From the NCBI GenBank assembly GCA_027489355.1, contig JAIXZY010000075.1, positions 1 through 64,000 of the forward strand: DNA of 64,000 bases, read 5' to 3'. A model generated the notes under the pieces. It was not told the DNA's origin and made no database searches. It saw only the letters and a program-made list of their open reading frames with translations. Positions 16,859-63,000 of the stretch are shown piece after piece; positions within the stretch are counted from its first letter, which is position 1; every line of letters begins with the position of its first letter. A program made the position numbers and the translations under genes. Source of the DNA: Paracoccaceae bacterium. Lineage in GTDB: Bacteria; Pseudomonadota; Alphaproteobacteria; Rhodobacterales; Rhodobacteraceae.

Positions 16859-16873
16859 CTGTCTGATGCCTGA

Positions 16874-32878: not shown

Positions 32879-33066
32879 GGCGGCCCCCTTTCCTGCCGCG
32901 TCTTCTTAGCGCGGGGGGCGGGCAAGGGGAAGCGGCTGCGGGGCGGCGGTTGCAATCGCGGCGCAAATGATTATCCCCTTGTCCAATTCCGGGCATAAAA
33001 TGGCCCGATCTTGCCGCGAGATATTCTTGAGGCCCCCGAGGGGCGAAGTTGGAGTTCGGTCAGGAC

Positions 33067-43534: not shown

Positions 43535-43705
43535 CCGGGTCCGCGCGGAGGCTTGGCTACCGTGCTGTTGTAGCGGGTCCGGTCCGGGAAGGAAAATGCC
43601 AACTCGGCCGTGCGGGGTCTTCGCCGCGGTTTTTTCGCGCCGGGCCCGCCTTGGAAGCGCCGGGGATTTCCGGCATGGTGGCCCCATGTCAGCGCCGGGG
43701 TCCAT

Positions 43706-44686: not shown

Positions 44687-44701
44687 CGGTCTGAACCGTC
44701 A
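44684..44701. terminator. Hairpin holding the stops of two convergent genes
   Basis: TGACGGT ctga ACCGTCA, a perfect 7-bp stem. The stop of the rightward GT2 gene (44684-44686) opens the left arm and the stop of the leftward GT4 gene (44699-44701) closes the right arm. There is no T-run. Confidence 0.5.
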
Positions 44702-45934
44702 GCGTGGCGAGTCCTTGGGGCCGCCCTGGCGGAAGAGCTGGGCCAGCCGCGCGCCTTCCTGCGCGATGTCGAAACCCGCTTCCACGGCGCGGCGTCCGGC
44801 TTCGCCCATCCTGCGGGCGGCGGCGGGGTCGTCCATCAGGCGGATGATCCGGTCGGTCAGGGTGGCGACGTCTCCGGGCGGGATGGCATAGCCGGTGACG
44901 CCGTCCTCGACCAGTTCCTGCACGCCCGCGACGCGGCTGGCGACCACCGGGATGCGCGAGGCGAGCGCCTCCATGTAGACGACCGGCAGACCCTCGGCGA
45001 AGGAGGGCAGGACCAGCATGTCGGAGTTCGCCAGCAGGTCGGCCACCTGGCCCTGGGTCATGAAGCCCGCGAAATGCACCGCACCGTCGATGCCAAGCGC
45101 CTTGGCCCGCGCCTCGGCCGGGGCGCGCGAGGGGCCGTCGCCGGCCAGGGTCAGGGTGGCATCGGGATGGGCCTTCAGCACCTGGGCCATCGCCTCGATC
45201 AGGAGGAGCGCGCCCTTCACCGGGTCGAGCCGCCCGACGAAGGCCACGCGCTTGCCGTTGCCGCCCGGGTCGCGCCGATAGGCCGCGGGCGTCACGCCGC
45301 AGTGGACGATGGCGATCTTTGCCCAGTCGGAGGGGTTGGAGAACAGCATCAGCTGCGAGCGGCAGAAATGCGTGATCGCCACGACGAACTGCGCCCGCGC
45401 GATCTTTTCCGGCAGGGACCAGCGGTCGACCTCGAAGAAGATCGCCGGCCCGTGTTCGGTGAAGCTGAAGGGGATTCCGGCGAGCCTGGCCGCAAGGACG
45501 GCGACCGAGCAACTGGAGTTGCCGAAGTGGTTGTGCAGGTGGCGGACGTTGGCGCGGCGCAGGTGGTCGGCCAGCACACCGGCTTCGAGGAAGTAGAAGA
45601 GCTGCCAGAGAAACGCCTTCAGCCCCGGCGACCGCATCCGGATCGCCAGTGCCAGGGTCGAGGCCCAGGTGCCGGGATTGCGCAGAAGCGCGCGGGCATG
45701 CCCGCCGAGCAACCGCAGCGGGTTCTTCGCGGCGGCGATGACGTAGAAGGTTTCGGCCCGGGCCTGACGTTCTTCCTGGCCCTTGAACTCGGACTCTGGC
45801 GGGCGGCGGATCGAGCAGGTGATGACCGGCACCCCGGCGGCGCGGACGGCCTGGACCTCGCGCAGGATGAAGGTGTGCGAGACCTTGGGATAGTCGCCGG
45901 TCAGATAGGCGACGGGGCCGGTCGGGTCGGTCAT
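44699..45934 (-). CDS. Glycosyltransferase family 4
   Basis: A 411-residue GT4. The N-terminal VAYLTGDYPKVSHTFILREVQAVRAAG is typical of colanic-acid-type WcaL transferases. The donor half carries VAFVGRLDPVKGALLLIEAMAQ, VLPSFAEGLPVVYMEALASRIPVVA and GVQELVEDGVTGY. Start at 45934 overlaps the stop of the upstream GT2 by four bases, so it is coupled. Confidence 0.93.
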   Translation of the reverse strand: MTDPTGPVAYLTGDYPKVSHTFILREVQAVRAAGVPVITCSIRRPPESEFKGQEERQARAETFYVIAAAKNPLRLLGGHARALLRNPGTWASTLALAIRMRSPGLKAFLWQLFYFLEAGVLADHLRRANVRHLHNHFGNSSCSVAVLAARLAGIPFSFTEHGPAIFFEVDRWSLPEKIARAQFVVAITHFCRSQLMLFSNPSDWAKIAIVHCGVTPAAYRRDPGGNGKRVAFVGRLDPVKGALLLIEAMAQVLKAHPDATLTLAGDGPSRAPAEARAKALGIDGAVHFAGFMTQGQVADLLANSDMLVLPSFAEGLPVVYMEALASRIPVVASRVAGVQELVEDGVTGYAIPPGDVATLTDRIIRLMDDPAAARRMGEAGRRAVEAGFDIAQEGARLAQLFRQGGPKDSPR

Positions 45935-46881
45935 GCAGATGCCTTTCGCCGCCACCAGAGAAGCTTGCCAAGTCCCCCGACGGCGGAAAGCTGGAAGCGG
46001 ACGGACCGGGCCTCGGACAGGGGGCGGGTTGCCAGCGCGGCCAGCCCGAGAAGCCCCAGTTGCGCCGCGCCGACCGCCATCCAGAGCGCGACGCGGGCGG
46101 CGCCCCTGATCCCGCCGGTATCGCTTTCGACCTTGCAGCGCAGCTGGCCGTCGCTGAACCGCCGCGCGCGCAGGAAAGCCATCGTCGCGCGGCGGGGCGG
46201 CACGATTTCCTGCACAAGCGCGTCGGGGCGCCAGATCATCGGCACGCCGTGCCGGTCGACGAGGCGACGGAACAGCCAGACGTCCTCGCCCCCGGCGTTG
46301 AACGAGGTGTCGAAGGGAGGGTCCACCAGAGCGAGCGTGTCGCGCGAGAACATGGAATTGCCCGAGCCGAGATAGGCGCGCAGGTGCTGGACCTCGGCCC
46401 CCGGAGCGGCGGGCAGGCGGCGGCTGAACACCCGGTCCAGCGGTGCGCGAAGCGCGGCGGGCGGGTCCTGGGGGTAAAGCGGCTCGACCGCCCCGAAAAC
46501 GGCGCGGTCGCCGCGGGCGGCGGCGGCGGCGAAGGCGGACAGCCAGCCGGTCGCCGGCAGTTCGTCGTCGTCGAGAAAGATGACATGGCCGCCCCGCGCC
46601 TCGGCCACGCCGCGGTTGCGGGCCTGGGCGACGCCGGTGCGGGGTTCGTGGATGTAGCGGACGAAATCGGGTGCGGGAACGGGGCGGGCCGAGCCCTCGG
46701 GGCTGTTGTCGACGAGGACGAGTTCCACCGGCAGGTCGAGCGCGGCGATCTGGGCGGCGACGGCCCGGAACAGTGGGGGCAGCAGATCCGCGCGCCGGAA
46801 GGTGGGGACGACGATGGAGAGGGCGGGCGCAAGGGGCGGGCGAACCGCTGCCGTGTCCAAATCCTTGTCCGCGAATGCCAC
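45931..46881 (-). CDS. Glycosyltransferase family 2
   Basis: A 316-residue GT-A transferase: ALSIVVPTFRRADLLPPLFRAVA, VLVDNSPEG, VIFLDDDELPATGWLSAF (DDD motif) and FNAGGEDVWLFRRLV. A hydrophobic C-terminal segment (MAVGAAQLGLLGLAAL) suggests membrane attachment. It is the first gene of the GT2-GT4 pair transcribed leftwards; 50 bp separate its start from the WecG gene. Confidence 0.92.
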   Translation of the reverse strand: MAFADKDLDTAAVRPPLAPALSIVVPTFRRADLLPPLFRAVAAQIAALDLPVELVLVDNSPEGSARPVPAPDFVRYIHEPRTGVAQARNRGVAEARGGHVIFLDDDELPATGWLSAFAAAAARGDRAVFGAVEPLYPQDPPAALRAPLDRVFSRRLPAAPGAEVQHLRAYLGSGNSMFSRDTLALVDPPFDTSFNAGGEDVWLFRRLVDRHGVPMIWRPDALVQEIVPPRRATMAFLRARRFSDGQLRCKVESDTGGIRGAARVALWMAVGAAQLGLLGLAALATRPLSEARSVRFQLSAVGGLGKLLWWRRKASA

Positions 46882-46931: not shown

Positions 46932-47771
46932 ATGGACAATCGCCTGCAAGTCGGGATCATGACGACAGAGTTTGACGACAGAATGGCATATCGGATGCAG
47001 CATTTGACCGACCGGGCCGAGGGCGACGCAGACCCTCTGGCGCTGGTCAATTTCCCGACAGAGGCGGCGCTTCTGGCCGACATCGAGGCACGGCTGGGCG
47101 CCGGGCGTGGCTTTGCCATCGCCACGCTGAACCTGGACCATGTGGTGAAGATGCGCAGCAACCCGCAGTTCCTGCGCGCCTACCGGGCACATAGCCATGT
47201 CGTTGCGGACGGCAACCCCATCGTGTGGCTCTCGCGCCTGTCGGGACGGCCGGATGTGGCGCTGGTGCCGGGGTCCGAGCTGATCGAGCCGGTGGCGGCA
47301 CTGGCGGCGCGGCTTGGGGCGCCGCTGGGTTTCCTCGGCTCGACGCAGCCGGTGCTGGAGGCGGCGGCGGCGCGGCTGACGGCGGATCACCCGGGGCTGA
47401 AGGTCGCGGCCTGCCTGGCGCCGCCCCATGGCTTCGACCCGGAAAGCGCGGCGGCGGATGCGATGCTGGATCAGATCGCCGCCTCGGGCGCGCGGATCTG
47501 CCTGCTGGCACTGGGCGCGCCGAAGCAGGAGCTGCTGGCGGCGCGGGGGCTGGCGCGGCATCCGCAGCTGGGCTTCCTGTCGATCGGGGCTGGGCTGGAT
47601 TTCATCGCCGGCCACCAGACCCGCGCGCCGGTATGGGTGCGGAGGGTCGCGATGGAATGGCTCTGGCGCATGCTGTCGAACCCCAAGCGGCTGGCCCGGC
47701 GCTACCTGGACTGCGCGCTGGTCCTGCCTTCGCTGACCAATACGGCGCTGGCGGCACGGAGACGGAAATGA
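46932..47771 (+). CDS. WecG/TagA/CpsF-family glycosyltransferase (GT26)
   Basis: A 279-residue GT26: IATLNLDHVVKMRSNPQFLRAYRAHSHVVADGNPIVWLSRL, VPGSELIEPVAALA, GFLGSTQPVLEAAAARL and LGAPKQELLAARGL, the recurrent motifs of the family. It transfers an aminosugar in enterobacterial common antigen and teichoic acid systems. The initiator could be ATG at 46932 or nine codons later. It overlaps the next GT2 gene (ATGA). Confidence 0.92.
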   Translation: MDNRLQVGIMTTEFDDRMAYRMQHLTDRAEGDADPLALVNFPTEAALLADIEARLGAGRGFAIATLNLDHVVKMRSNPQFLRAYRAHSHVVADGNPIVWLSRLSGRPDVALVPGSELIEPVAALAARLGAPLGFLGSTQPVLEAAAARLTADHPGLKVAACLAPPHGFDPESAAADAMLDQIAASGARICLLALGAPKQELLAARGLARHPQLGFLSIGAGLDFIAGHQTRAPVWVRRVAMEWLWRMLSNPKRLARRYLDCALVLPSLTNTALAARRRK

Positions 47772-48766
47772 CCCAGACGACGATGGCGGCGGGGCCGACC
47801 GTCCTGACGGTGCTGCTGAACTGGCGCACGGCCGAGATGACGCTCACGGCCGCGGCGGCGGCCGAGCGCGCGATGGAGGGCATCGCGGGCGGGATCGTCG
47901 TGGTGGACAACGATTCGGGCGACGGCTCGTTCGAGCGGATGTCCGAGGCGCTGCAGGGCCACCCGCGGATCCGGGTGGTGCAGTCGGGCTGGAACGGCGG
48001 CTTCGGGGCGGGCAACAATGTCGGCATGCGGCTTGGCCTGCCGGGCGGGGTGCGGCCAGACTATGTCTACATCCTGAACTCTGACGCCTTCCCGGCCCCC
48101 GATGCGATTCGGCTGCTGGTCGACTATCTGGAAGCCCATCCCAAGGTCGGGATTGTCGGCAGCTATATCCACGGCCCGGACGGCGAGGCGCACTGGACCT
48201 GCTTCCGCTTCCCCTCGGTCGCGTCCGAGTTCGAGGGGGCCGCGCGCACCGGCCCGATCTCACGCCTGCTCGCGCATCGCACCGTGTCCATTCCGGTGCC
48301 CGAGGCAACGGGACCGGTGGACTGGCTGGCCGGGGCGAGCATGATGCTGCGCGAGGCGGTGGTGCAGGCGACGGGCGGCTTCGACGAGACCTTCTTCCTG
48401 TATTTCGAGGAAACCGACCTTTGCCGCCGGGCGGCGCTGGCCGGCTGGCCCACGCATTTTGTCCGGGAAAGCCGGGTCGAGCATATCGGATCGGTCTCGA
48501 CCGGGATGAAGACCTGGAAGCGGGTGCCCGGCTACTGGTTCGACAGCCGCTGGCACTATTTCCGCAAAAGCGGCGGGTCGGCGCGGGCGGTGGCGGCGAC
48601 GCTGGCCAACCTTGCCGGCGGGCTGATCCTGCGCGCGCGACGGCTGGTGCGGCCCAGCATTCCGCCGGGACCGCCGCATTTCCTGCGGGACCTCGCAGGT
48701 CATGCGGTCCGGCAAATCCTGCGCGGGAACCGCGGGCCTAGGGGCGGACCTGGAACTCTCGGCTGA
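47768..48766 (+). CDS. Glycosyltransferase family 2 (rhamnosyltransferase-like)
   Basis: A 332-residue transferase: VLTVLLNWRTAEMTL, IVVVDNDSGDGSFERM, VQSGWNGGFGAGNNVGMR, the DxD-like ILNSDAFPAPDA and FFLYFEETDLCRRAALAGW, all typical of rhamnosyltransferase-type GT2. It is coupled to WecG. Its 3' end overlaps the convergent outer-membrane protein by 29 bp. Confidence 0.92.
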   Translation: MTQTTMAAGPTVLTVLLNWRTAEMTLTAAAAAERAMEGIAGGIVVVDNDSGDGSFERMSEALQGHPRIRVVQSGWNGGFGAGNNVGMRLGLPGGVRPDYVYILNSDAFPAPDAIRLLVDYLEAHPKVGIVGSYIHGPDGEAHWTCFRFPSVASEFEGAARTGPISRLLAHRTVSIPVPEATGPVDWLAGASMMLREAVVQATGGFDETFFLYFEETDLCRRAALAGWPTHFVRESRVEHIGSVSTGMKTWKRVPGYWFDSRWHYFRKSGGSARAVAATLANLAGGLILRARRLVRPSIPPGPPHFLRDLAGHAVRQILRGNRGPRGGPGTLG

Positions 48767-50078
48767 GGGCGACGAAGACGTTCGGCGAGGTCGAGCGGCC
48801 GTCGCCATCGTTGCGCACCCGGTAGCCAAGGCCGGTATCCAGGCTCCAGTCCGCGGTCAGGCGCTGGTTGTAGCCGGCGCCGAAGGTCACCTGCTCGATC
48901 CGTTCCGAGGGCGAATCGCTTTGCTCGTAGGTCAGGTCCAGCGAGACCGAGGCCACGTCGTTGACGTTCTTCAGCCAGTTCACGCTGACCAAGGAGGACA
49001 CGGTTTCCTCGTCGTCGTCGTCGAAGGTGACGCTGCGCGCGATGTCGAGGCCAAGCGACCCGTCGGGAAGATCGTGTTCCCAGCTGAGGCTACCGATCAG
49101 ATCGGTTCCCGTAGGGTCGGCATGGGTGACGCCCAGTCGGGCGGTGATGGTGTGGACCGGGGTTTCAAGGCTGCGGCCGATCTCGAAGGTCTCGCGGCGG
49201 CCCTCGTCAGCATCGGTCGTCACGCGCAGAAGCGCCGAGGCGGTGCCGACCGGCATGTCGTAGGTCAGGCCCAGGCTGAGATCGGGACCGGTGGTCCGAT
49301 CGATCACGCCGAAATCCTCTTCCTCGCTTTCGGTGTAGCCAATCTCGGCAGCAAGATCCAAACGCTCGCTTACCGCGTAGTCGAGACCCGCATAGGTCAC
49401 GACCGTGGTGGTGACGGTGGTGCCGGGGGTCTCTTCCTCAAGCTCGCTGTAGCGCATTCCGAAGCGGCCGGTCGCCACTTCCGAGAAATGGAGAATCACC
49501 GCGGCATCGGCGCGGACCTCGGTGCTGTCGTCCAGTTCGGGGTCCAGAGTGTCCTGGTAATCGGTCGCCTCGTAGGCCGCGCCGATGGCGAAGCCGACCG
49601 AAGAGGTCCGGCCGCCTTCCAGCCGGGCGGACAGCAGGTAATCGGTACGCGTGCCGGATTCGTCGGTGTCCGCCAGATCGTCGTCGAAGGCATCGACGTC
49701 GTCGTTGCGCAGCTCGCCCTGGATGTCGAGGACGGCGGACGGAACCTCGCGGTGGTAGTCCAGCGTCACCGCCGCGCGGCCGAAGTCCAGCTCGGTTCCG
49801 GAATCGGAGGCCGTGTTCTGCACGATCGCTGCGCCGGTTGCGCCGAAGGCAAGGCGGTCGATCTCGGTTTCGCTTTGCAGGCCGAAGGACAGACGGGTGA
49901 CGTTCGCGACATCGGTGCCGTCGGCCGGGACGGCGAGGGCGTCATTGCGCACGACCTCGAACCGGTTCTCGAATCCGAAGGTCATCAGCACCCCGCCGTC
50001 CTGTGCCAGCGCGGCACAGGGCGACAGGGCGGTTGTCGCGGCGCAAAGCCCGCCGAACGCGATACCGAACCGGCGCAT
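48738..50078 (-). CDS. Outer-membrane beta-barrel protein of the polysaccharide export locus
   Basis: A 446-residue exported protein with a signal peptide (RRFGIAFGGLCAATTALSPCAALA) and many amphipathic strands with aromatic girdles. The C-terminus is VFVALSREFQVRP. It is acidic and contains no enzyme motif. The gene follows the short Wza gene by 6 bp in the same operon. The setting matches beta-barrels that serve as the outer-membrane channel in EPS secretion (VpsM/EpsX-type); that role is inferred. Confidence 0.82.
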   Translation of the reverse strand: MRRFGIAFGGLCAATTALSPCAALAQDGGVLMTFGFENRFEVVRNDALAVPADGTDVANVTRLSFGLQSETEIDRLAFGATGAAIVQNTASDSGTELDFGRAAVTLDYHREVPSAVLDIQGELRNDDVDAFDDDLADTDESGTRTDYLLSARLEGGRTSSVGFAIGAAYEATDYQDTLDPELDDSTEVRADAAVILHFSEVATGRFGMRYSELEEETPGTTVTTTVVTYAGLDYAVSERLDLAAEIGYTESEEEDFGVIDRTTGPDLSLGLTYDMPVGTASALLRVTTDADEGRRETFEIGRSLETPVHTITARLGVTHADPTGTDLIGSLSWEHDLPDGSLGLDIARSVTFDDDDEETVSSLVSVNWLKNVNDVASVSLDLTYEQSDSPSERIEQVTFGAGYNQRLTADWSLDTGLGYRVRNDGDGRSTSPNVFVALSREFQVRP

Positions 50079-50084
50079 CCGCGA

Positions 50085-50693
50085 TTACTCGAACAGCTTG
50101 CGCTGCGGGATGACGATCACGTCGCCGCTGACCAGCCGGGTGCCGCCGCCACCGGAAGCGCCGCGTTCGATCGCGTCGAGGTCGAACTTGTAGACCTGCT
50201 CGGCGCCCGACTTGTCGACGCGGCGCAGCTGGATGCGCTTCTTGGCGGCAAAGGGCGACAGGCCACCGGCCTGGGCCAGCGCCTGCAGGAGCGTGGCGCC
50301 GGGCTTGACCTCGACCTTGCCGGGGGTGTTCGCGGCGCCGAGGATGTAGACGTCGATCGTGCGCGCTGCGGCGGGCGTGCTGGGCGCGCGTTCGGCGAGC
50401 GCGCTGAGCGTCACATAGACCGTGGGCGCAGCCGCAAAGTTCGGGGCAAGCTTGCCGGCCAGATCGGCCTGGACTTCCGCAAGCGTGCGGCCCGCGGCGC
50501 GGATCGACCCGGCCAGCGGCAGCGAGATCTGACCGTCCGGAAGGACGATGGCGCTGCGGTTCAGTGTCGCGTCTTCCAGCACCTCGATCTGGAGCACGTC
50601 GCCCGACCGGACGCGGTAATCCTGGGCCGAGGACAGCCCCGCCAGAATCGGCAGGACGAAAAGGGCGGCAAGCAAGCGGCGAAGGATAGGCAT
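50085..50693 (-). CDS. Short polysaccharide export protein (Wza/OPX family)
   Basis: A 202-residue OPX protein with a signal peptide (MPILRRLLAALFVLPILAGLSSA, no lipobox Cys). It then has the polysaccharide export domain (YRVRSGDVLQIEVLEDATLN, VLPDGQISLPLAGSIRAAG) and one SLBB-like unit (YILGAANTPGKVEV, LLQALAQAGGLSPFAAKKRI). It is much shorter than E. coli Wza and has no C-terminal amphipathic helix to span the outer membrane. The adjacent beta-barrel may supply that. Confidence 0.92.
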   Translation of the reverse strand: MPILRRLLAALFVLPILAGLSSAQDYRVRSGDVLQIEVLEDATLNRSAIVLPDGQISLPLAGSIRAAGRTLAEVQADLAGKLAPNFAAAPTVYVTLSALAERAPSTPAAARTIDVYILGAANTPGKVEVKPGATLLQALAQAGGLSPFAAKKRIQLRRVDKSGAEQVYKFDLDAIERGASGGGGTRLVSGDVIVIPQRKLFE

Positions 50694-50861
50694 CGAAAAT
50701 ACTCCCTGGCGGCCAGTCAAAAACGGGCGCGACTGCGACAGAGCAACAGTATTTGCCCGACGACACTTGGGAAAGAGGAAATGCACCCGCATTCCGGCCG
50801 AATCAGGGTCATGACGGGGCAGGTGGGCCGAATGCTTCCTCCGGTGGCGCAAATGCCACAA

Positions 50862-51821
50862 TCAGACCGGAAGGCCGGACAGTCCCTGCGCGCGCACCAC
50901 GTCGTCCGTCAGCTCCTGCATCAGGCGCGCGACCTGGGGGTCAGGGGCCGTCGCAGGCGTGCCATCGGCCCGGGTCAGCTGGTGCGGCAGTCCGACCGGC
51001 GAGCTCTGGTAAAGGACCGCGAAATGCACCAGCGCCACCAGGTAATTGCCCAGGTCGTTCAGGTGGATCGGGTCGATCGTCCCATCCTCGGCCCGCTGGA
51101 AAAGCGCGGTGCGGTCGCGGACATTGCCAAGCCCGTCCCGGCCCTCGACCGCGCGGACGAAGGCGGCCAGGACCTGACCTGCCGGGATCACCCGAAGCGG
51201 GATGTCGTCGGGAAGCTGGTTCAGCGCCGGACCCAGAACGCGCGACAGCCAGTAGCGGTCGAGATCGCGGTCAAGCCGGTCAAGCCAGCCTTCCGGGTCG
51301 TCCAGCGGATGCCAGGTCTCGTAAAGATAGAGACGCACGTCAGGGCGCGCCGAAAGCGCCTTGGCCGCCCATCGCGCCAGGTACCCGGGGCTGTCGTACC
51401 AGCGGATCGAGGCGCGGATCTCGACCATTTCGGTCAGCACCACCGCATCGTAGTCGCCGCTGTCCACCGCCTCATGTGCGGGGCGGAAGCGGGGATGGGC
51501 GTTTTCGGTGTCGAAGCCGTTGATCGGCGCGTCGCCCCAATGCGCCTGCAGGGTCGTGCCCCAGCCGAGCTGGCTGTCGTAGCGGTGGCCGGGCGGGGCA
51601 AGCTGGGCCAGCATCGCCGGCATGTCGCGATTCACCAGGCTGTGTCCAAGGTGAAAGACGCTCATCGGACGGGGCGAGGCGGGCAGGGGCGCGGCAAGGC
51701 GGGCGCGGACCTTGGCGGGCGAGGGCGGGCGCGTCAGCCCCCAATAAAGCGCGCCGGTCACCGCCGCACCCATCCCCGCCAGTCCGCCCAGGATCGTCAT
51801 CCGCCGCGTCATTCGTACCAT
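50862..51821 (-). CDS. SGNH-hydrolase-like exported protein
   Basis: A 319-residue protein with an N-terminal membrane helix (MTILGGLAGMGAAVTGALYW). The core has FHLGHSLVNRDMPAML (candidate catalytic Ser), VVLTEMVEIRAS and IDPIHLNDLGNYLVALVHF (a D-x-x-H type pair), the layout of SGNH hydrolases or acyltransferases. It overlaps the PPTase gene by 13 bp, so it belongs to the NRPS/PKS operon. It could act on the product or on the polysaccharide at the cell surface. The family call is by motif only. Confidence 0.68.
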   Translation of the reverse strand: MVRMTRRMTILGGLAGMGAAVTGALYWGLTRPPSPAKVRARLAAPLPASPRPMSVFHLGHSLVNRDMPAMLAQLAPPGHRYDSQLGWGTTLQAHWGDAPINGFDTENAHPRFRPAHEAVDSGDYDAVVLTEMVEIRASIRWYDSPGYLARWAAKALSARPDVRLYLYETWHPLDDPEGWLDRLDRDLDRYWLSRVLGPALNQLPDDIPLRVIPAGQVLAAFVRAVEGRDGLGNVRDRTALFQRAEDGTIDPIHLNDLGNYLVALVHFAVLYQSSPVGLPHQLTRADGTPATAPDPQVARLMQELTDDVVRAQGLSGLPV

Positions 51822-52462
51822 GCAACCCCCGCCAGGACCCGTCCCTCGACCAGTGCAAGGCCCCCCGACAGGACCTGGCCCGCCCGGAAGACACCCGCAT
51901 CCTGCCGGAACTGGGCATCGAAACCGCCTTCGACAAGGGTCACGGAAAGCGCCTCGAAGCCGAACATGGCGCGGGCGTCGGGTGGCTGCGCCTTGAACAC
52001 GGCCTCCTTGGCGCAGAAGAGCTGGCGGACCTGGCGGCCGGGGTCGCCGGTCAGGCGTGCAAGCTCGTCGGGGTGGCAGAGGGTCGGCCAGAGGTCGGGC
52101 TCGATCGGGGCGTCGGGCTCCAGGTCCACGCCCAGGGGAGCGCCGCGGCGGGCTACGGCGACGGCAAGGGCGCCGTCATGCGCGATCGAGCCGGACAGGC
52201 CCGCGGGCCAGAGCGCGGCGCGGTCGGGCGCGACGGGCAGCGCGGCCGCCGGATGACCGAGAGCGGACAGAACCCGACGGGCGGCCAGGCGTCCGGCGGC
52301 AAACTCTGCCAGCCGCTTCGGGACTGCGCCCAGGATCGCGGACCGCTCCTCGGGCCAGAGGGAGCTGGCGTCGGCCGTTCCGATCGCTTCGGCGGCGACG
52401 GCGACACCGGCCGGAAAGATCCGCCGCAGCGCCGCCTCGACCGCCGCCGGGGCGGGCGTCAT
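51809..52462 (-). CDS. 4'-phosphopantetheinyl transferase (Sfp/EntD type)
   Basis: A 217-residue PPTase. It has LSGSIAHDGALAVAVA, the magnesium motif PLGVDLEPDAPIEPDL and QLFCAKEAVFKAQPPDARAMFGF, typical of EntD-like enzymes. It loads phosphopantetheine on carrier proteins and here should activate the carrier domains of the adjacent NRPS and PKS. The start overlaps the NRPS stop by four bases, so it is made with it. Confidence 0.93.
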   Translation of the reverse strand: MTPAPAAVEAALRRIFPAGVAVAAEAIGTADASSLWPEERSAILGAVPKRLAEFAAGRLAARRVLSALGHPAAALPVAPDRAALWPAGLSGSIAHDGALAVAVARRGAPLGVDLEPDAPIEPDLWPTLCHPDELARLTGDPGRQVRQLFCAKEAVFKAQPPDARAMFGFEALSVTLVEGGFDAQFRQDAGVFRAGQVLSGGLALVEGRVLAGVAWYE

Positions 52463-55400
52463 CCCAGGGCCTTCTCCCGCGCCTCGCGCATCGCCCGGCG
52501 TCGCGCCATCGCGTCCATCCGGCTGTCGGCAGCCGTATCGCCGGTGGCGGCGGGGGCCGCGGCGGGTGCAGGGGCCGGTGCCGCGGTGGCGGATGGTGGC
52601 GGTGCAGGAACGGGCGTCGGCACCGAGGTGATCGACTTGCCCAGATGCGCCGCCAGCGCCGAGACGACGGGGAAGCGGAAGATGTCGGTGATCGCCAGCC
52701 GGTCGGAGTTCAGCGCCACCTTCATCTCGCGATGCGCCTGAACGGCCAGCAGCGAATGGCCGCCCAAGGTGAAGAAGTTGTCCGACCGCCCGACCTGAGG
52801 CACCCCCAGGACGCGCGCCCAGACGGCGGCGATGGCGTCCTCAAGGCTGCCTTCATGGGCGACGGCGGGTCGGGTCGGTGCCGCCGGGGCTTGCGCGGAG
52901 GCAGGTGCGGCGGGCGCAGCGACGGGGGCCGGGGTGGCAGCAAAGGGCGCGGGCAGGGCCTTGCGGTCGACCTTGCCGTTGGGTGTCAGGGGCATGGCGT
53001 CGAGCTTGACGATATGGGCGGGGACCATGACCTCGGGCAGGTGCTCGGCCAGAGAGGTTTTCAGCGCCGCTGCGTCGATCGGGCCGCCCGCGGTGACGTA
53101 GGCCACCAGCCGCACGTCGCCGGGCTGGTCCTCACGCGCAAGGACGACCGCCTGCCGGATGCCGGGGAGGGCTTCCAGCGCCGTCTCGATCTCTCCCAGT
53201 TCGATCCGGTGGCCGCGGATCTTCACCTGAAAGTCGGCGCGGCCGAGGTAGTCGAGCTTTCCATCCGCGCGCTTCCGCACGAGATCCCCGGTGCGATACA
53301 TCCGGCCATGTCCGGCAAAGGGGTCGGGGCGGAAGCGGTCGGCGGTCAGGTCGGGGCGCTGGAAGTAGCCCTGCGCCACGCCCTCACCGCCGATCCAGAG
53401 CTCGCCCTCCTGCCCGTTGGCCACAGGGACCTGGGCGTCGTCGAGGATGTAAAGCGCCGTGTTGGCAATGGGTTGGCCGATGTTGACCACGCCTTCGCCG
53501 CCGGTGGTGGCTTCGACGGAAGACCATATCGTCGTCTCGGTCGGGCCATACATGTTCAGGACCGGCGCGCCGATCAGTCCGGACAGATCGCCCGCCAGAC
53601 GGCCCATCAGGGCCTCGCCGCCGACGAGCATCCGCTTGAGGGTCTTCAGCGCCGCCCGCGCACCCTCGTCCTCGGCCAGCATCCGGGCCATCGAGGGGGT
53701 GCATTGCAGGTGCGTGACCTTGTGGCGCTGGATGAGGCCCGCCATCGTCTGGTCGTCATCGGCACCCGAGTTGGTGATCTTCAGCACCTCGGCCACCAGC
53801 TTCAGCCCCTCCAGCACCACCTGGGTCGGGATGCCGTAGTCGATCAGGCAGGCGACCTCGTCCACGTCGATGGCCTTCAGCTCTTCGACCCGGGCGACGG
53901 CGTCTTCCACGGTGCCGAAAAGCCCTGAGTCCTCGAAGTAGCGCAGGAAGGCGAAGTCGAGGATCGCTTCCAGCTCGTCCGGGGCGAGGCTGCCAAGGTC
54001 GATGTCCATTGGGTTCGCCACGCCCTGCGGCTTCTTGAAGGCCGGGAAGGCCCAGGCGTACTGCTTGATGAGACCTGCGGCGGAGCGAAGGTAGTTCTTC
54101 ATCGGCTCGCGCGCGACCTCCCGGGCGGCCTCGCGGTCATGGGCCAGGAAGGTGTGCAGCATCAGCGTGACCTTGAAGCGGGACGGGTCATGCCCCGCTT
54201 CGGCCAGTGCGGCGCGGTAAAGCTTCACCTTCTCCGCGACCTCCTGGATGGACTGGCCAAGAAGGTGGGTCAGCACATGCGCGCCCATCCGCCCGGCCTC
54301 GCGCCAGGTCTCGGGGTTGCCGGCGGTGGTGACCCAGACCTCGACCTCTTTCGAGACGGGGCGCGGCTGGGTCGTCACGGCGAAGGGCGTGCCGTCCTTG
54401 CGCGGGAATTCCACGGCCTCGCCGCGCCAGAGTCTCCGTACGGCGTCAAGGGAGTCGAACAGCGCCTGCCGGTTCGCGGGGGGCGTGTTTTCTGGCCGCA
54501 GCACGAAGTCATCGGGCTGCCAGCCCGAGGCGAAAGCCAGGCCCGCGCGCCCGTTGGTCAGGTTGTCGATGATCGCCCATTCCTCGGCGATGCGGGCCGG
54601 GTGGTGGAGCGGCGCAACGATGCTACCCGCTCGGACGCCGATGTTCCGGGTGACGGCGGCGGCGGCGGCGCCGGTGACCGAGGGGTTCGGATAGGGGCCG
54701 CCGAAGGCGTGGAAGTGGCGTTCCGGCGTCCAGACGGCGACGAAGGTGTGCTGGTCGGCGAACTTCGCGCCTTCCAGGAGAAGCTCGTATTTCGACGGAC
54801 CCGGCAGGTCGTCGTTACCCCAGTAGTAGACCGAGAAGTCCATCTTGCGGGGGTTGATCGCGCTGTCGCCCGAGGGCTGGACGCGGGCGGAATCGTCGGC
54901 CAGAACGACGGTGAAGCCGTTGGTCAGCGTCCAGAACAGTTCGAGGATGGAAATGTCGAAGCTGAGCGAGGTGACGGCCAGCCAGGTCCCGGGGTCGGTG
55001 CCAAGCGTGTCGTCCATGCCCGCGAAGAAGTTCAGCGCGTTGCGGTGGGTGACGACGACGCCCTTGGGCCTGCCGGTGGAGCCGGAGGTGTAGATGACAT
55101 AGGCCGGGTCCTCGGCGAGGGGGCCTGCGGGCAGGGCAGTGGAGGCGTCAAGCGGGTCCGCGTCCAGGACCAGCCGCTGCGGCCCTTGCGGCAGGGCATC
55201 GGCGGCGGCGCTTTCGGTAACGATCACCGGGCAGCCCGAGTCTTCGGCATACAGCTCAAGCCGATCGGCGGGGTAGGCGGGGTCCATCGGGACGTAAGCG
55301 GCTCCGGCAAGCTGGATGCCAAGCGCGCCGGCGACCATGTCGGTCGTGCGGCGGCAGGCAAGGCCGACGAGGGTGCCCTTGCGGACGCCCATCCGGTGCA

Positions 55401-57069
55401 GCGTGTTTGCGATGCGGGCCGCGCGGGCGGCAAGTTCGGCGTAGGTGAGTTTGACGGACCCGGCGATGACGGCGGTAGCGTCGGGGGTCTTGGCCGCCTG
55501 GGCCAGGATTGCGGCTGGGATCGTCAGGGTACGGTCGTAGTCGCGGGCGGTGGCGGACAGGGCGGTTGCGTAGACCTGGGTTTCGGCCTCGGAGAGGGGG
55601 GAGAGGCTGGCGAGCTCGGCCTCGGGCTTCGCGGCCATCCGGGACAACAGGCGGGTGATGCGGGCGGCAAGGCGATGCGCCTCTTCCGCGGGCATCCGGC
55701 TGGCGTCGTGCCAGAGGGACCCGGCCGTCAGCGTGACCGTCGCCCCGGCGACAGGTTCGGCGCCTTCGCTGACGGCAAGGCCCGAGGGCGCAACCGCGGT
55801 CAGGCCCGGTTCGCGCAGCGCAAGGTCGGCGGCAAGGCCGGTGGCGCTGCGAGCGGCGTCGAGGGACTTGGCGGCGCGGGTTTCGGCGGTGTGGACGGTG
55901 CCCGAGGCGTCAAGGCGGACGGGGACCCACGGGAGGACATACCCCGGCGCGGGGTCCTGGCCGGTGGCAAAGGCGATGTCCCCTGCGCTGCGCCCCAGCG
56001 CGCGGAGGGCGGCGAGTGCGAGCGAGCTCGGACCAGCCGAGGGGAGCGGGATTTCACACCAGTCCTGGGGGCCGCCCGCGGCGGCGAGGGCCGGGTCAGG
56101 CTTCAGGAGCAGAGCGCGGAGGCGGGTCTCGGCCTCGGCCACCGGGGCGAGGGCGGCGTCGAGGGCTTGGGCCTCGGCTTCGCTGGGCCAGGACAGCGCT
56201 GTTCCGGCCCGCGCGGTGTCGATGGGCAGGCCCTTGAGGCAGGTGAGGCCGCCAAGCCGGACAGCTCCGCTGGCGCAGGCGACGGTCAGGCTGACCTCGT
56301 CGCGGGCAAGCACGGTGCCGGGAGCGCCGCTGCCGGGAAGGATCTCGGCATGGGCCACGGCCCAGACCTGGCCGGGAACTTCGATCTTGGCGACGGCCAG
56401 CGGGTTCCGATAGCCGCCGTGGTCGAGCGCACGGACGGTGCGGGCGACCTCTTCGGCGCTGCGGGTGAAATCGAGCCGCCCGTCGGCGCGGGGCCGGTCG
56501 GCGCGGCGCCAGACTTTCCGGGTACCTGCGTCTTGCGGCCGGCGGGGGTGGCCCCCGGCTTCCATCGCGGTGATGACCTCCGGGAAGCTTTCGACGGCGG
56601 CAGAGAAGCACCGGGCGTTCAGCGTGAAGGCGGTGTCGTCGGCCTCGATCGGGAAGCTGCGGGTCGCCAGCACCTCGCCCTCGTCGATCCCGGCGGTCAT
56701 CAGGTGCCAGGTGATCGCGTGGCTGGCCTCGCCGTTCAAAAGTGCCCAGACCGGGGCATTGAGGCCCGCATAGCCCGGCAGCGGGCCGTCATGGAAGTTC
56801 ACGCCGCCCATCCGCGCCAGCTGCATCACTGGCTCGGGCACCAGCGACAGGTTGGCGACCGACAGCACCCAATCGACCGCCAGCCCCTGCGTCCGTTCCA
56901 CCAGCCCCGCGCCGGGGGCGATGACCCGAAGGCCCGCAGAGGAGGCCCAAGATGCGACCTTGGGTTCGCGCGTGACGACGGCGGAAAGCCTGTGCCCCCC
57001 CTCAAGCCACAGCTTGCCACATTCGACCGTCAGGCTTTCGTTGCCGATCAGAAGGGCTGTCAGGGTCAT
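52459..57069 (-). CDS. NRPS: formyltransferase - C-like remnant - adenylation with inserted luciferase-like monooxygenase - carrier
   Basis: 1,536 residues from ATG at 57069, chosen for the GGAG site 9 bases upstream (an ATG nine codons earlier overlaps the PKS). In order: formyltransferase (1-310; NFHDGPLPGYAGLNAPVW with Asn and His, GIDEGEVL with Asp); a region (310-495) resembling only the end of a condensation domain, without HHxxxDG; adenylation N-part (about 500-735; YTSGSTGRPKG, SFDISILELFW); a flavin luciferase-like monooxygenase (about 742-1096; VYYWGNDDLPGPSKYELL, VWTPERHFH, IVAPLHHPARIAEEW); adenylation C-part (about 1105-1390; MYGPTETTIW, NGKVDRK); carrier (about 1405-1480; GGHSLLAVQA). 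No thioesterase. The pocket residues read D-I-L-Q-L-G-M-I-W-K, near the glycine code. It follows the PKS by 13 bp. Confidence 0.88.
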   Translation of the reverse strand: MTLTALLIGNESLTVECGKLWLEGGHRLSAVVTREPKVASWASSAGLRVIAPGAGLVERTQGLAVDWVLSVANLSLVPEPVMQLARMGGVNFHDGPLPGYAGLNAPVWALLNGEASHAITWHLMTAGIDEGEVLATRSFPIEADDTAFTLNARCFSAAVESFPEVITAMEAGGHPRRPQDAGTRKVWRRADRPRADGRLDFTRSAEEVARTVRALDHGGYRNPLAVAKIEVPGQVWAVAHAEILPGSGAPGTVLARDEVSLTVACASGAVRLGGLTCLKGLPIDTARAGTALSWPSEAEAQALDAALAPVAEAETRLRALLLKPDPALAAAGGPQDWCEIPLPSAGPSSLALAALRALGRSAGDIAFATGQDPAPGYVLPWVPVRLDASGTVHTAETRAAKSLDAARSATGLAADLALREPGLTAVAPSGLAVSEGAEPVAGATVTLTAGSLWHDASRMPAEEAHRLAARITRLLSRMAAKPEAELASLSPLSEAETQVYATALSATARDYDRTLTIPAAILAQAAKTPDATAVIAGSVKLTYAELAARAARIANTLHRMGVRKGTLVGLACRRTTDMVAGALGIQLAGAAYVPMDPAYPADRLELYAEDSGCPVIVTESAAADALPQGPQRLVLDADPLDASTALPAGPLAEDPAYVIYTSGSTGRPKGVVVTHRNALNFFAGMDDTLGTDPGTWLAVTSLSFDISILELFWTLTNGFTVVLADDSARVQPSGDSAINPRKMDFSVYYWGNDDLPGPSKYELLLEGAKFADQHTFVAVWTPERHFHAFGGPYPNPSVTGAAAAAVTRNIGVRAGSIVAPLHHPARIAEEWAIIDNLTNGRAGLAFASGWQPDDFVLRPENTPPANRQALFDSLDAVRRLWRGEAVEFPRKDGTPFAVTTQPRPVSKEVEVWVTTAGNPETWREAGRMGAHVLTHLLGQSIQEVAEKVKLYRAALAEAGHDPSRFKVTLMLHTFLAHDREAAREVAREPMKNYLRSAAGLIKQYAWAFPAFKKPQGVANPMDIDLGSLAPDELEAILDFAFLRYFEDSGLFGTVEDAVARVEELKAIDVDEVACLIDYGIPTQVVLEGLKLVAEVLKITNSGADDDQTMAGLIQRHKVTHLQCTPSMARMLAEDEGARAALKTLKRMLVGGEALMGRLAGDLSGLIGAPVLNMYGPTETTIWSSVEATTGGEGVVNIGQPIANTALYILDDAQVPVANGQEGELWIGGEGVAQGYFQRPDLTADRFRPDPFAGHGRMYRTGDLVRKRADGKLDYLGRADFQVKIRGHRIELGEIETALEALPGIRQAVVLAREDQPGDVRLVAYVTAGGPIDAAALKTSLAEHLPEVMVPAHIVKLDAMPLTPNGKVDRKALPAPFAATPAPVAAPAAPASAQAPAAPTRPAVAHEGSLEDAIAAVWARVLGVPQVGRSDNFFTLGGHSLLAVQAHREMKVALNSDRLAITDIFRFPVVSALAAHLGKSITSVPTPVPAPPPSATAAPAPAPAAAPAATGDTAADSRMDAMARRRAMREAREKALG

Positions 57070-57082: not shown

Positions 57083-60000
57083 TCACTCGGCAGCAAGTCG
57101 TTGATCTGGCGCGCGGAATTCGCCCGCCTCGGCCGCCTGGATCGCGGCCTTCATCCGGGCGGCGAGCACCCGGACGTTCGGTTCCAGCACCATGGAATCG
57201 TGGTCGCCTGGGACTTCGACGACCTCCAACCGGGGCGCGTACGGCGTCCAGAGGTTGTCGTGGAAGACATATTCCCGCGCCTCGGACACCCAGTTGCCAC
57301 CCGTCACCTTGTAACGGCGATCCAGCGGCGGGCGGTAGAGGACGACCTTGCCGTCCTCCCAGCCCTTCAAATCGTAGACCCCGATGGCATGACGGAAGGC
57401 GGCCTCGATGGCGGCGTTGTTGTAGGACGGCACCGTCGGGTCGGGCTCGTTCGCGGCCTTGGCGCGGCGCGAGCGTTCCCATTCCCAGCGGCGCTTCGCC
57501 CATTCGGCCAGGAACTGCGGCCCCCCGGCGCGGAGTTCGGCGAGTTTTATCAGGGCCTTGTCGGGCTTGGTCAGGAAGGGCCGGACGGGAAGCGGCGTGT
57601 CAAGAAGGACCATGAGGGCCACTTCCTCGCCTTGCGCCCGCAGCATCTGGCCGATCTCCCAAGCCGTCAGGCCACCGCCGGAGAAGCCGCCCAGAAGGTA
57701 GGGGCCTTTCGGCTGGACCTGCCGGATTTCGGCGAGGCAGGAGGCGGCGGCTTCCTCGATGGTCATGTGCGGCTTGTCGTCGCCGAACAGGCCCTTGGCC
57801 TGAAGGCCGTAGAAGGGCCGGTCGGTGCCGAGGAGGCTGGCGAGGTGGCGGAGGTTCAAGACGTTGCCGAACATGCCGGCGACGAGGAAGAATGGGGTCT
57901 TCGGGCCCCCGTCGCCCCGGTGCATGGCGACGAGGTGGGTGAACTTCGGGCCTGCCGGGTCGGCAAGCTCGGTCGGCGCGGGAGCACTGTCGTCCTGGGG
58001 GCCGATGCGGTCGATGATCAACTGCGCGCAGCGGGCGATGGTCGGGGCCTCGAAAAGGACCGAGATCGGGAAGTCGACCTTCCACTGCCGCCGGATCATC
58101 GCAAACAGGCGCACGGCGATGAGGGAGTGGCCGCCGAGGGCGAAGAAGTCGTCCTCGACCCCCACTTCGGCGACGCCCAGAAGCTCGGCCCAGAAGCCTG
58201 CAAGGGTGCGTTCAACCGAGTTGCGGGGCGCGACGTATGCGCTTTCCAGGTCCGGCCGGGCGAAGCCGGGGCCTTCGGTTTCCGCCGCGATGGGGGCGTT
58301 GGCCTGCCTGACCAGCGCGTCGAGGTCGAGCGAGGAGACGAGGACCTGAGCGCTGTCCGCTGCGATGGCGCGGAGGAAGGCCTCGGCGCCCTCGGCAGGG
58401 CGGATGCCGCCCGCAAGAGCCTGCGCGAGCCGCTGTTCGGCGGGGGACTGGCCGCGTTGGTCGTCGTCGCGGATCACTTCGCGCGGGTTTGGGGGCTGGG
58501 GCTTTGCGAGGGCCTCTTCAAAGGCGACCTTGCGGAAGGTGATGCCTTCAACCTCGACGAGGACCTTGCCCGATGGGTCGGTGAGGCTGACGTCGAAGCT
58601 GGCCGTGTCATCGGTCGGGGTGCCGGAGAGGCGGACCCAGCTGCGGATTTCGGCCGGAAGCGCGCCGTGGACGCTGACGCTGGTCGTGGTGACGGGGGCC
58701 CAGACGAAGCCCTCGGCCACTTTGGGCAGAAGCGCGATGCCCCAGCCGGTGCCGATGTCGTAAAGCGCCGGATGCAGCGCGGCGGTGGCAGTGTCGACCA
58801 CCGCCTGCGGCGGCAGCGACAGCGTAGCAAGGCCTTCGCGGTTGCCCAAGGCGGTGGCCTTGAGAACTTGCCAACGTGGCCCGAAGGCGATGCGGTCTTC
58901 CTGCGCCGAGGGGAGGTTTTCCCCGCCTGCCGCCGTGGCCTTGTCCGGGCAGCGCGCGGCGATAGCGGTCAGGTCGATGGTCCCGGCGGGCGCGTCGAGC
59001 GGGGCGACCCCCATCTCGGCGGTCAGCGCCCAGCCCTGCGGCTCCAGCGCGCGGGCCTGCAGGCGCTGCTTGCCATCCCGGCTGCGCGTGAGGCTGACGC
59101 GGAAGTCGCGGGGAAGGTCCGCCTCCAGCCGCAGGGGGCGGAAGACGGTGAGGTCGGTGAGTTGGAAGCCGGTCTTTGCACCGGCCGCCGCAAGCGCTTC
59201 GCCCGCGATCTCCGGGTAGGCCGAGCCGGGCAGGACTGCGGTGCCGTCAAGGAGGCGGTGGTCGTCCATGACCCACTGGTCCTTGGTCAGGGTCGCGTGG
59301 AAGCGCGTCTCATCCTCGCCCTTCTGCATCCGTTCCAGGACCAGCTGGCCGGGCAGCGGCGCGCCCGCGTCCTTGCCCTGGCGGCGGGCGTCGGCGTCGG
59401 CGGCCATGCCGATGCCGGACCAGATGCCCCAGTTGACCGAAGTGACCTTGGTCAGGCCCCCGGCGCGGGATTTGGCGAAGGCGTTCAGGTATTCGTTGGC
59501 CGCCACGTAGTCCGCCTGGCCCGCTGGGGTCAGGACGGTGGAGGTGGAGGAGAAGAGGACGATCCGGTCGACGGACCCATCGGGGAGGAGCGTGTCGAGA
59601 AGCTTCGTCCCGTGGACCTTGGGCGACAGGACCGCGTCGGCGCTGCCGGGGTCCTTGCCGAGGAGGGGGGCGTCGTCGACGGTGCCCGCGGCATGGACGA
59701 CGCCGTAGATCGGGCCGAACTCCGCCCGGACGCGGGCGAAGGCGGCGCGCATGTCTTCGGGGTTGCAGACGTCGGCGGCGACGGCCATCACGCGGCCCAG
59801 GCGTTCGAGGCGCGAGAGGACCCCGGCGCGGACCGACCCGGTTTCGGGAAGATGGCGGCCGATGAGGGCGACCTTGGCGTGGCGGTCGCGCATCAGGCGT
59901 TCGGCGACGGTGACGCCGATCCCGCCGAAGCCGCCGGTGATGACCCAGACGGAGCCTTCGGGGACCTCAGCCTGCTCCGGCAGTTTTGCCGGGACGAGGC

Positions 60001-63000
60001 GGGTTTCCAGGCGGCGGCTGCCCCGGATCGCGGCGGCAGTGTTGGCGGGGGTCGCCAGCATTTCCTCAAGGACCGCCGAGACGGTCTCAGGCGCGATCTT
60101 CTTGTCGAGCGTCACGTCCAGAAGGCTCGCCGTCAGCCCCGGCAATTCGCGGGGCATGACGCGGACGGGGCCTGCGACGGTGGCTTTCTCGGGGTAGGGC
60201 AGCGCCTCGGTCCGGACCTGCGCCGCGCCGGAGGTGACGACGGTCAGGTGGGGCAGGGGCTTCAGCCCGATCTCGGCGATGGCCTGGCCGAGGAAGAAGA
60301 GGCTCCAGAAGCCTTGTTCCAGGTTGCGCTGGAAGAAGCTGGAGCCGGGGCGGAAGGCCTCTTTCTCGGTCACCAGCCAGAAGTGGGCGATCCGCGCAGG
60401 CGACAGGTCGCGTTGGGCGAGGTCGGCGAGAAGCGCGTCGTAGCCTTCGCGCCCGTGTTCGGGGGCCAGCGTGTAGGTGTCGTCCGAGGTGCGGGCGAAG
60501 GCGTCGCCGGCGTGGACGGTGATGACGCGGTGGCTAGCGGCGCGCAGGCGCTGGACGGCGGCGCGGGCAAGGCCGGCCTCATCGGCGAAGACGAGCCACG
60601 TCAGCGGCGCGCCGAGTTCGGTTTCGACGTCCACCGGGCAGTCGGCGGGCATCACACGCCAGCCGATCTTGTAGCCGAAGTCGGTCACGCTGTCGTGGCG
60701 GGCGGGGGTCAGGTCAGCCTCGGTCACGACCGCCGGTTGGCCGCGTTCGACGAAGTAACGGCTGCGCTGGAAGGGGTAGGTCGGCAGGGGGACGCGGCGG
60801 CGCTTGGCCTCGCCCCAAAGCTGGGTCAGGTCGGGTTCCGCCCCGCAGGCCCAGAGGCGGCCGAGCGTGGCGATGAAGTGGCGGTCGTCGGAGACGCTGT
60901 CGTCGGGGTGCCGCAGGCTGGCCGGGACCGGCTGGCCCCCCATCGCGCCGTTGGCCTGCGCAAGGGACGCCATCGCGCGGCCGGGGCCGACCTCAAGATA
61001 GACCCGGTCGGCCTTCTGGCGCAGCGTCGCCATGCCGTCGGCGAAGCGGACGGTGTTCCTCAGATGGGCGACCCAGTAGTCGAGGCTGGTCGCCTCGGCA
61101 TCCGTCAGCACCTGGCCGGAGCGGTTGGAGATGATCGGGATCTGCGGCGGGGAGAGGTGCATTCCGGCCAGGTGGGCGCGGAAGGCCGCAAGGATGCCTT
61201 CCAGCATCTTCGAATGCGCCGCGATGTCGATGGCGATGCGGGTCGTGTCGATGCCGTCGGCCTTAAGCCGCTCGGCCAGGTCCTTCAGGCCCGCGTCGGA
61301 CCCCGACACCACGGTCAGTTCCGGTGCGTTGACCGAGGCGATGTCGAGATCGCCAAGGTAGGGCTTCAGCGCCGCCTCGGACAGTGGCACGGACAGCATC
61401 CCGCCCGCAGGCACCGTGTCGAAGAGCTGCCCGCGCAGGCGGACGAGGCCCACGGCGGCTTCCAGCGTCATCACGCCCGCGACGCAGGCAGCGGCGTTTT
61501 CGCCCATCGAATGGCCGATCAGGACGGCGGGCTGGACGCCCCAGCTCTCCCAGAGCTTCGCCAGCGCCACTTCGACGATCAGGATCAAGGGGAGCTGCTT
61601 CGACGGCTGGCGCAGCGCCTCGGCAGCGGCCTGTTCCTGGCCCTTCGCGGGTAGCCAGAGCGCGCGGGTTTCCGCCTCGGCATCGCCCAGGGCGGCGAGG
61701 CCCCGGTCCATCCATTCGGCGAAGACGGGTTCCGTCTCGTACAGGTCGCGCGCCATGTTGGGGTATTGCGCGCCGCCGCCGGGGAACATGAACACGACGT
61801 CCGGGCGGTCGCCCAACCGGCGCTGGGTGAAGACGCGGCGGGGGTCGCCGGCCTCCAGCATCTGCGCGGCTTCCTCGTGGGTCTCGGCCACCAGCACGCG
61901 GCGGTGTTCAAAGGCGCGGCGACCGTGCTTCAGGGTCCAGGCGACGTCCGCGAGGTCCTGCTCCGGATGGGCGCGAAGGTGGGCGGCGAGGCGGGAGGAG
62001 GCCTCACCGAGGGCCGACTGGCTGCGGGCGGAGAAGGTGATGAGCTGGAAGGGCCAGTCCGAGGCCTCGGACGCGGCCAGGGCAGGGGGTTCCTGCACGA
62101 CGACGAAGGCGTTGGTGCCGCCGACGCCAAGCGAGTTCACCCCGGCGCGGCGGGGGCCTTTGCGGCGGGGCCAGTCGTTGAGGCGGTCGTTGACGCGGAA
62201 GGGGCTGCCGTCGAAGTCGATGGCGGGGTTCGGCGCCTCGAAGTTCAAGGACGGCGGCATCTGGCCGTGGTGCAGCGCGAGCGTGGTCTTGATGAGGCTT
62301 GCCACGCCTGCGGCGGTGTCGAGGTGGCCGATGTTGGTTTTCACCGACCCGATCTTTGCGAAGCCTTTTTCGTTGGTGGTACGGCGGAAGGCTTCGGTCA
62401 GCGCAGCGACTTCGATGGGGTCGCCAAGGTAGGTGCCGGTGCCGTGGCATTCGACATAGTCGATGGTCTCGGCAGGCGTTCCGGCGACGGCAAGGGCGGT
62501 GGCGACGCAGGCGGATTGGCCTTCGACCGAAGGTGCCAGGTATCCCGCTTTCGCGGCCCCGTCGTTGTTGACCGCGGACCCCTTGATGACGCCCCAGATG
62601 TGGTCGCCGTCGGCCAGCGCATCCTCGAGCCGCCGCAGCAACACCGTCCCGGCGCCCGAGCCGAAAACCGTGCCCTGCGCGCGATGGTCGAAGGCATGGC
62701 AGACGCCGTCGGGCGAGAGGACCTCGCCTTCTTTGTAGATGTAGCCGCGGCCCTGGGGCAGGTCGATGGTCACGCCCCCCGCCAGCGCCATGTCGCATTC
62801 GCCGTTCAGAAGCGCCTGGATCGCGTAGTGCGTGGCGACCAGCGACGTGGAGCAGGCGGTCTGCAGGCCGAGGCTTGGCCCCTTCAGGTCGAAGACGTGG
62901 CTCACGCGGGTGGACAGGAAGTCCTTGTCGTTCCCCGTGTGACGCAGAAGGAACATGCCGGTGCTTTCGACCAGCGCCGGGTTCGAGCAGAGGTTGAAGT

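Follow-up and report, generated by a model that had tools for sequence, protein, structure and literature searches.

We analyzed a 64,000-nucleotide stretch of a Paracoccaceae bacterium genome (contig JAIXZY010000075.1, assembly GCA_027489355.1; hereafter the window), which encodes on its reverse strand a nonribosomal peptide synthetase (NRPS) and, upstream of it, a type I polyketide synthase (PKS), both lying inside a polysaccharide locus. The NRPS has the architecture F-A(MOX)-PCP, that is, a formyltransferase (F), an adenylation (A) domain with an embedded luciferase-like monooxygenase (MOX) and a peptidyl carrier (PCP) domain, with a remnant of a condensation (C) domain following the formyltransferase:

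52459..57069, minus strand: F-A(MOX)-PCP NRPS, 1536 residues, putative loading module
56200..57069, minus strand: formyltransferase domain, residues 1-290, triad N91/H93/D129 (Pfam, model and PDB matches, conservation)
55525..56199, minus strand: truncated C-domain remnant or linker, residues 291-515, no HHxxxDG seen
54850..55512, minus strand: A domain, first part, residues 520-740
53785..54837, minus strand: TIGR04020 luciferase-like monooxygenase inserted in the A domain, residues 745-1095 (PuwE 6ket, 347 bits)
52942..53784, minus strand: A domain, second part including AMP-binding_C, about residues 1096-1376
52642..52839, minus strand: PCP domain, residues 1411-1476, S1439

Domain architecture and substrate code of the NRPS

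A domain search with Pfam and TIGR04020 bore out the original prediction, made from the DNA letters and their translation, that a formyltransferase, a C-like remnant, a split A domain and a carrier follow one another in this protein. The formyltransferase is of the Fmt/ArnA type, as judged from Pfam and from the fold match of its model, and the Asn-His-Asp triad foreseen for it aligns as N91/H93/D129 and is kept in 33/33 alignment rows covering it. The segment at residues 742-1096, which had been read as a luciferase-like monooxygenase with MupA/Atu3671 kinship, indeed matches TIGR04020 with 472.3 bits over model positions 1-340 of 341 (curated cut-off 244.45 bits), and its best PDB match is the PuwE structure 6ket. 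The Foldseek and VIA rows listed for a model of residues 1-520 are all formyltransferases; residues 291-515 were assessed by a sequence search against the PDB, which returned nothing significant, and with hhalign, in which only 46 columns resemble C domains. An HHxxxDG motif was not seen in the translation of this segment, and a functional upstream condensation domain was not found there.

LgrA chains are the top PDB matches for the whole protein, in support of the LgrA-type formyltransferase-A-carrier logic proposed at the outset. The initiation module of linear gramicidin synthetase, LgrA (F-A-PCP), shares the domain order and the triad and also has no complete C domain, whereas the NRPS described here has a C remnant after its formyltransferase, a glycine code, a monooxygenase within its A domain, a presumed hand-over to a PKS and a place in polysaccharide loci. 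The triad, together with the lack of a functional upstream C domain, points to a formylating, LgrA-like initiation module for which formyl transfer itself is predicted. Two relatives show other forms of the formyltransferase: in G375 (L129/L130) the domain reads N-F-F versus N-F-H in the family, such that the catalytic histidine seems replaced, and on a Deinococcus plasmid (L137) neighboring genes (14785-15699 and 15945-20108) separately encode the formyltransferase and the A-monooxygenase-carrier part.

The A-domain code assembled from both halves, with positions taken from the GrsA numbering, is DILQLGMIWK. Among the 38 aligned rows, all 34 that cover the ten positions read DILQ[LFMA]GMIWK. 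A similar code was obtained from A domains with the same insertion and no formyltransferase (Streptomyces, Nostoc, Burkholderia and two further genomes), namely in 7/7 that gave a code, four of which have one end position (the last) missing or misaligned, DMVQLGMVWK deviating at two positions near the start; this extraction covered 35 loci, three of which had no monooxygenase frame, one of which gave no code and one a partial code. The monooxygenase thus appears to travel with a glycine A domain, and its substrate would therefore most simply be carrier-bound (N-acyl)glycine. Modules of the MtaG/MelG type, which have the same insertion in a glycine A domain, end a chain, whereas the module here should start one and has a formyltransferase. 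According to the relevant part of a survey (PMC12283262), four glycine-activating A domains with a MOX all have DILQLGMIWK, and the MOX "cleaves the carbon backbone" of glycine. The identity of the codes supports glycine as the substrate of the A domain, as had been guessed, and code and insertion together are those expected of a glycine A domain with an embedded MOX.

The partner PKS and the surrounding polysaccharide locus

The NRPS gene is flanked on the same strand by the following genes:

57083..63406, minus strand: type I PKS with ketosynthase (KS), acyltransferase (AT), ketoreductase (KR), dehydratase (DH), acyl carrier protein (ACP) and thioesterase (TE) in the order KS-AT-KR-DH-ACP-TE, likely start near 63406 (open reading frame (ORF) open to 63715)
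51809..52462, minus strand: 4'-phosphopantetheinyl transferase
50862..51821, minus strand: SGNH-hydrolase-fold protein, hydrophobic N-terminus, invariant G59 H60 S61 L62, D250 and H253
50085..50861, minus strand: Wza-like polysaccharide export protein (Poly_export and SLBB), likely start near 50693

A 13-base gap separates the PKS from the NRPS, the phosphopantetheinyl transferase gene overlaps the NRPS stop by 4 bases and the SGNH-like gene overlaps the phosphopantetheinyl transferase gene by 13 bases, which points to a single operon; the Wza-like gene follows about 168 bases after the SGNH-like gene if its likely ATG is used. At a Hydrogenophaga locus, the phosphopantetheinyl transferase and SGNH-like ORFs are separated by an extra AMP-ligase/NRPS-like ORF of 1981 residues (L025:18892-24837).

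Within the PKS, the KR precedes the DH. The catalytic residues of KS, AT, KR, DH, ACP and TE show no substitution in 38 family rows, which are those left from a 43-row alignment after setting aside four other PKSs and one Deinococcus row deviating in the AT motif and at the aligned position of the TE serine; three of the 38 have gaps, L028 in the KS positions and both L012 and L027 in place of the TE histidine. The AT motif is unusual, reading IAAH in 34/38 rows and VAAH in four. The PKS gave no match to a PKS-type enoyl reductase, its PF13561 match overlapping the KR.

The PKS, NRPS, phosphopantetheinyl transferase, SGNH-like and Wza-like genes share one orientation within a polysaccharide locus that has these further members, GT2 and GT4 denoting glycosyltransferase families:

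48738..50078, minus strand: outer-membrane beta-barrel protein (OMP_b-brl, 30.7 bits)
47750..48766, plus strand: GT2, start approximate, within ORF 47225-48766; its family sits between PKS and NRPS in several relatives
46932..47771, plus strand: WecG/TagA/CpsF glycosyltransferase
45931..46881, minus strand: GT2
44699..45955, minus strand: GT4
43610..44686, plus strand: GT2
42056..44638, minus strand: ORF with a Wzy-like polymerase, true start inside (Wzy_C 30.0 bits, under the cut-off of 31.7)
40848..42056, minus strand: GT4
37941..39941, plus strand: ABC exporter
36442..37140, plus strand: priming sugar transferase (Bac_transf)
33049..34503, plus strand: mannose-1-phosphate guanylyltransferase / mannose-6-phosphate isomerase (ManC)

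Polysaccharide proteins make up the bulk of the annotated window proteins (30.7 to 64 kb), and the sequence past the window end (L046) encodes an ExeA-like ATPase, a Wzz-like protein and a ParA/CpsD-like ATPase. Bac_transf, WecG, GT2/GT4 and Poly_export in the window and Wzz just beyond it together form a surface-polysaccharide assembly set. The locus also contains a 2OG-Fe(II) oxygenase (40012-40851) with a 388-bit relative near the pair in Ruegeria conchae.

Distribution of the pair and its genetic setting in relatives

TIGR04020 (E at most 1e-80) was found in 142 of 394 genomes sampled from the family of the window (141/393 genera), mostly in frames of about 1500-1650 residues, with a few fragments or short frames. 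The combination had been called unusual in the original prediction; these counts do not support that description, and the idea of a rare architecture was rejected. In wider samples, matches that include other kinds of NRPS/PKS occur in 11/385 class genomes and 19/378 phylum genomes; a scan of named genomes yielded 33 loci, and among plasmids 17 records have one place covering at least 80% of the protein. Five genomes (G003, G008, G009, G010 and G032) have a second TIGR04020 match in frames of about 375-419 residues, apparently stand-alone monooxygenases elsewhere in these genomes. A match to the PKS was detected in 70/70 of the TIGR04020-positive family genomes searched, a subset of the 142 in which two matches are weak (36-37% identity); PKS and monooxygenase share a contig in 64 of these genomes and are on different contigs in six.

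The flanks of the pair (about 19 kb on each side) were read in 19 other family genomes, picked for long contigs out of the 142 positives. In 19/19, a CpsD-like ATPase plus Wzc- or Wzy-like and glycosyltransferase genes adjoin the pair; the individual counts are 19 for CpsD-like, 18 for WecG, 17 for Wzc/Wzz, 17 for Wzy, 16 for flippase and 14 for priming transferase. As controls, two 19.5-kb regions at round-number positions were scored with the same reference set in each of the first ten genomes; none of the ten had WecG, CpsD, Wzy, Wzc/Wzz, flippase, GT2 or GT4 there (0/10), and one had a priming transferase (1/10); the remaining nine flanks were scored with a slightly larger reference set and no controls of their own. 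We named the reference proteins, and hence the markers, ourselves on the basis of Pfam hits, annotations on plasmids and inspection of translations; the "CpsD" references match Pfam ParA-type ATPases, with a CpsD/CapB annotation only in a Parasedimentitalea plasmid.

At least one polysaccharide-assembly marker is present in 39/41 loci, the two others being short contigs, and in 33/35 once six loci are left out that were themselves the source of reference proteins and so necessarily match (L042-L045, L137, L139). The Neorhizobium-like loci L029, L030, L032, L035 and L036 are near copies, and the family sample and the first loci overlap (for example, equal coordinates in G006 and G699) and thus do not form independent sets. 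Among the 32 first-set genomes with a monooxygenase match, 25, counted by eye, have Poly_export no more than 25 kb from the pair (the 33rd genome has no match); in the seven others the pair is on short contigs or contig ends, as far as listed. Near the pair in the wider family it was found in only 1/70 genomes among the matches listed, and we rejected it as a single marker because it is too narrow, which is why the flanks themselves were read.

The same link to polysaccharide genes holds in Rhizobiales, at one Hydrogenophaga and one Myxococcales locus, in Methylobacterium, in G934 and on the Deinococcus plasmid with its separate formyltransferase gene. An interim conclusion that Methylobacterium and G316 have no polysaccharide genes was overturned by Pfam and wider references. 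In a tree of the A-monooxygenase part, whose root is unsure and which contains several long rows, the window groups with family, Rhizobiales, Hydrogenophaga and Myxococcales members in one branch (support 98/98), a second formyltransferase-bearing group (90/82) comprises Deinococcus, Methylobacterium, G316, G375, M344 and G1074, and formyltransferase-less members are placed elsewhere. On the Aliiroseovarius M344 plasmid (L138), which has no marker and stands outside the 41 loci, the relative of the pair is bordered by nitrous-oxide reductase genes on one side and a VPLPA-CTERM exosortase on the other, and has a larger PKS/NRPS partner.

We found no paper describing the NRPS-PKS pair in the open-licence PMC literature, which does not show that none exists. 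The novelty is the conserved NRPS-PKS pair built into polysaccharide assembly loci and not the domain order of the protein.

Proposed product and competing explanations

We propose that the pair consists of a loading NRPS and a PKS that make an N-formylated, oxidized glycine-malonate acyl group for a surface polysaccharide, a tentative reading that falls just short of an even call. The A domain would activate glycine onto the carrier, the formyltransferase would add a formyl group to its nitrogen and the inserted flavin monooxygenase would oxidize the carrier-bound N-formylglycine, most likely at the alpha carbon; this order of formylation and oxidation is presumed. The neighboring PKS would add one malonate-derived C2 unit, followed by reduction and perhaps dehydration, and its thioesterase would free a small formamido-oxy-C4 acyl group, made for, and putatively attached to, the polysaccharide encoded around the pair. 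The SGNH-like protein, with its hydrophobic N-terminus, may lie outside the cytoplasm. It is the leading candidate for a role there in handling of the acyl group, as no MBOAT or AT3 acyltransferase match was found on the contig. Polysaccharide decoration by the pair, a step that we consider roughly evenly balanced, is suggested over a free metal-binding molecule because the pair sits in polysaccharide gene sets of many bacteria.

The Dlt system for D-alanylation of teichoic acids, in which a surface polymer is acylated by way of an A domain, a carrier and an SGNH-fold partner, resembles this scheme in outline only: the pair is not a Dlt member, has no MBOAT partner on the contig and comes with a formyltransferase, a monooxygenase and a PKS. 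A Dlt-like MBOAT route was rejected for the locus, since this genome has a single MBOAT match, located on a different contig.

Several observations weigh against polysaccharide decoration. No enzyme is assigned to acyl transfer onto the sugar, and the SGNH-like gene was found in only 24/41 loci. A Wzx-like flippase was not identified in the window, where only an ABC exporter was found, and the Wzy_C match is under its cut-off. To these are added the near absence of Poly_export among the matches listed for the wider family and three relatives, Aliiroseovarius M344, G375 and G1074, with no polysaccharide genes in the stretches read. A PKS with a thioesterase would allow simple release of a free acid, and an N-acyl alpha-hydroxyglycine could break down, so that the PKS starter would then be glyoxylyl.

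These points bear in part on a first alternative, which we consider unlikely: that the pair makes a free small molecule (an antibiotic, a signal or a metallophore) and is only genetically linked to the polysaccharide genes, for instance with both serving surface life. The C-terminal thioesterase of the PKS retains its serine and histidine, the three relatives just named keep the pair, and three of the four formyltransferase-less relatives inspected (Streptomyces and Nostoc plasmids) adjoin other NRPS/PKS genes, the fourth adjoining a flavin reductase. This explanation is at odds with the polysaccharide genes in all 19 family flanks and with the same setting in three phyla. A siderophore receptor was not seen among the annotated window proteins of about 30.7-64 kb, to which no dedicated siderophore search was applied, and the free small metal chelator of the original prediction finds no support in a neighborhood that is a polysaccharide locus. 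The flavin reductase gene (L155:6933-7454) next to the formyltransferase-less Streptomyces NRPS, which has the same monooxygenase, is a possible source of reduced flavin.

A second alternative, which we regard as improbable, retains the N-hydroxylation originally predicted: the monooxygenase would hydroxylate the glycine nitrogen and formylation would give N-formyl-N-hydroxyglycine, a retro-hydroxamate displayed on the polysaccharide or released as a chelator. N-oxidation of carrier-bound glycine has been proposed for the necroximes, whose oxime is put down in the relevant section to an oxygenase acting on the glycine primer before PKS extension (PMC7318616), which leaves room for nitrogen oxidation here; the word luciferase does not occur in that text. 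PuwE, the closest solved relative of the monooxygenase domain, works within a PKS/NRPS on a fatty acyl chain, unlike the NRPS here, and its tailoring leads to a 3-amino-2-hydroxy acyl group, as described in the section concerned (PMC4219810). Alpha-hydroxylation or Baeyer-Villiger steps are ascribed to several luciferase-like monooxygenases in a passage of the palmerolide paper (PMC8739492). FbnE of fabrubactin, a flavin monooxygenase and proposed alpha-hydroxycarboxylate maker, was not counted, as its luciferase-like nature is not stated in the part of the source at hand. Oxidation of carrier-bound glycine is predicted in either case; we favor carbon over nitrogen, the weaker chemistry, because these accounts of luciferase-like/MOX domains speak of the carbon next to the carrier thioester or of cleavage of the glycine backbone.

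Splitting of the alpha-hydroxylated N-formylglycine into formamide and a glyoxylyl-carrier, with the formyl group as a disposable mask and glyoxylate as the PKS starter, seems decidedly improbable. MtaG/MelG chemistry may bear on such glycine splitting. A folate-dependent domain kept only as a mask would be costly, and no relative with a known product was found.

RkpA is a PKS proposed to make a lipid carrier or primer for Sinorhizobium capsules, a type I PKS within a polysaccharide locus like the one here but not known to have a formyltransferase-monooxygenase NRPS partner. That our PKS likewise acts repeatedly to build a lipid anchor or primer, as its place in a polysaccharide locus might suggest, is very improbable given that no PKS-type enoyl reductase was matched and that a glycine loading module would be strange for a lipid.

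Extending the acyl-group proposal to relatives, it is possible, at somewhat less than even confidence, that in Pseudomonadota, Myxococcota and Deinococcota a widespread class of surface polysaccharides bears a non-sugar group of NRPS-PKS origin, an N-formylated, oxidized glycine plus one acetate unit. If so, NRPS-PKS lines would not only make free metabolites: a conserved one, with a monooxygenase family that turns up in roughly one in three genomes sampled from a large family, would serve to decorate a polymer of the cell surface, and this would explain the "orphan" NRPS-PKS in so many genomes of the group. The site of oxidation on glycine is directly testable with purified protein. Genome miners would then seek the product in the polysaccharide and not in the culture extract, and polysaccharide chemists would have a specific group to look for.

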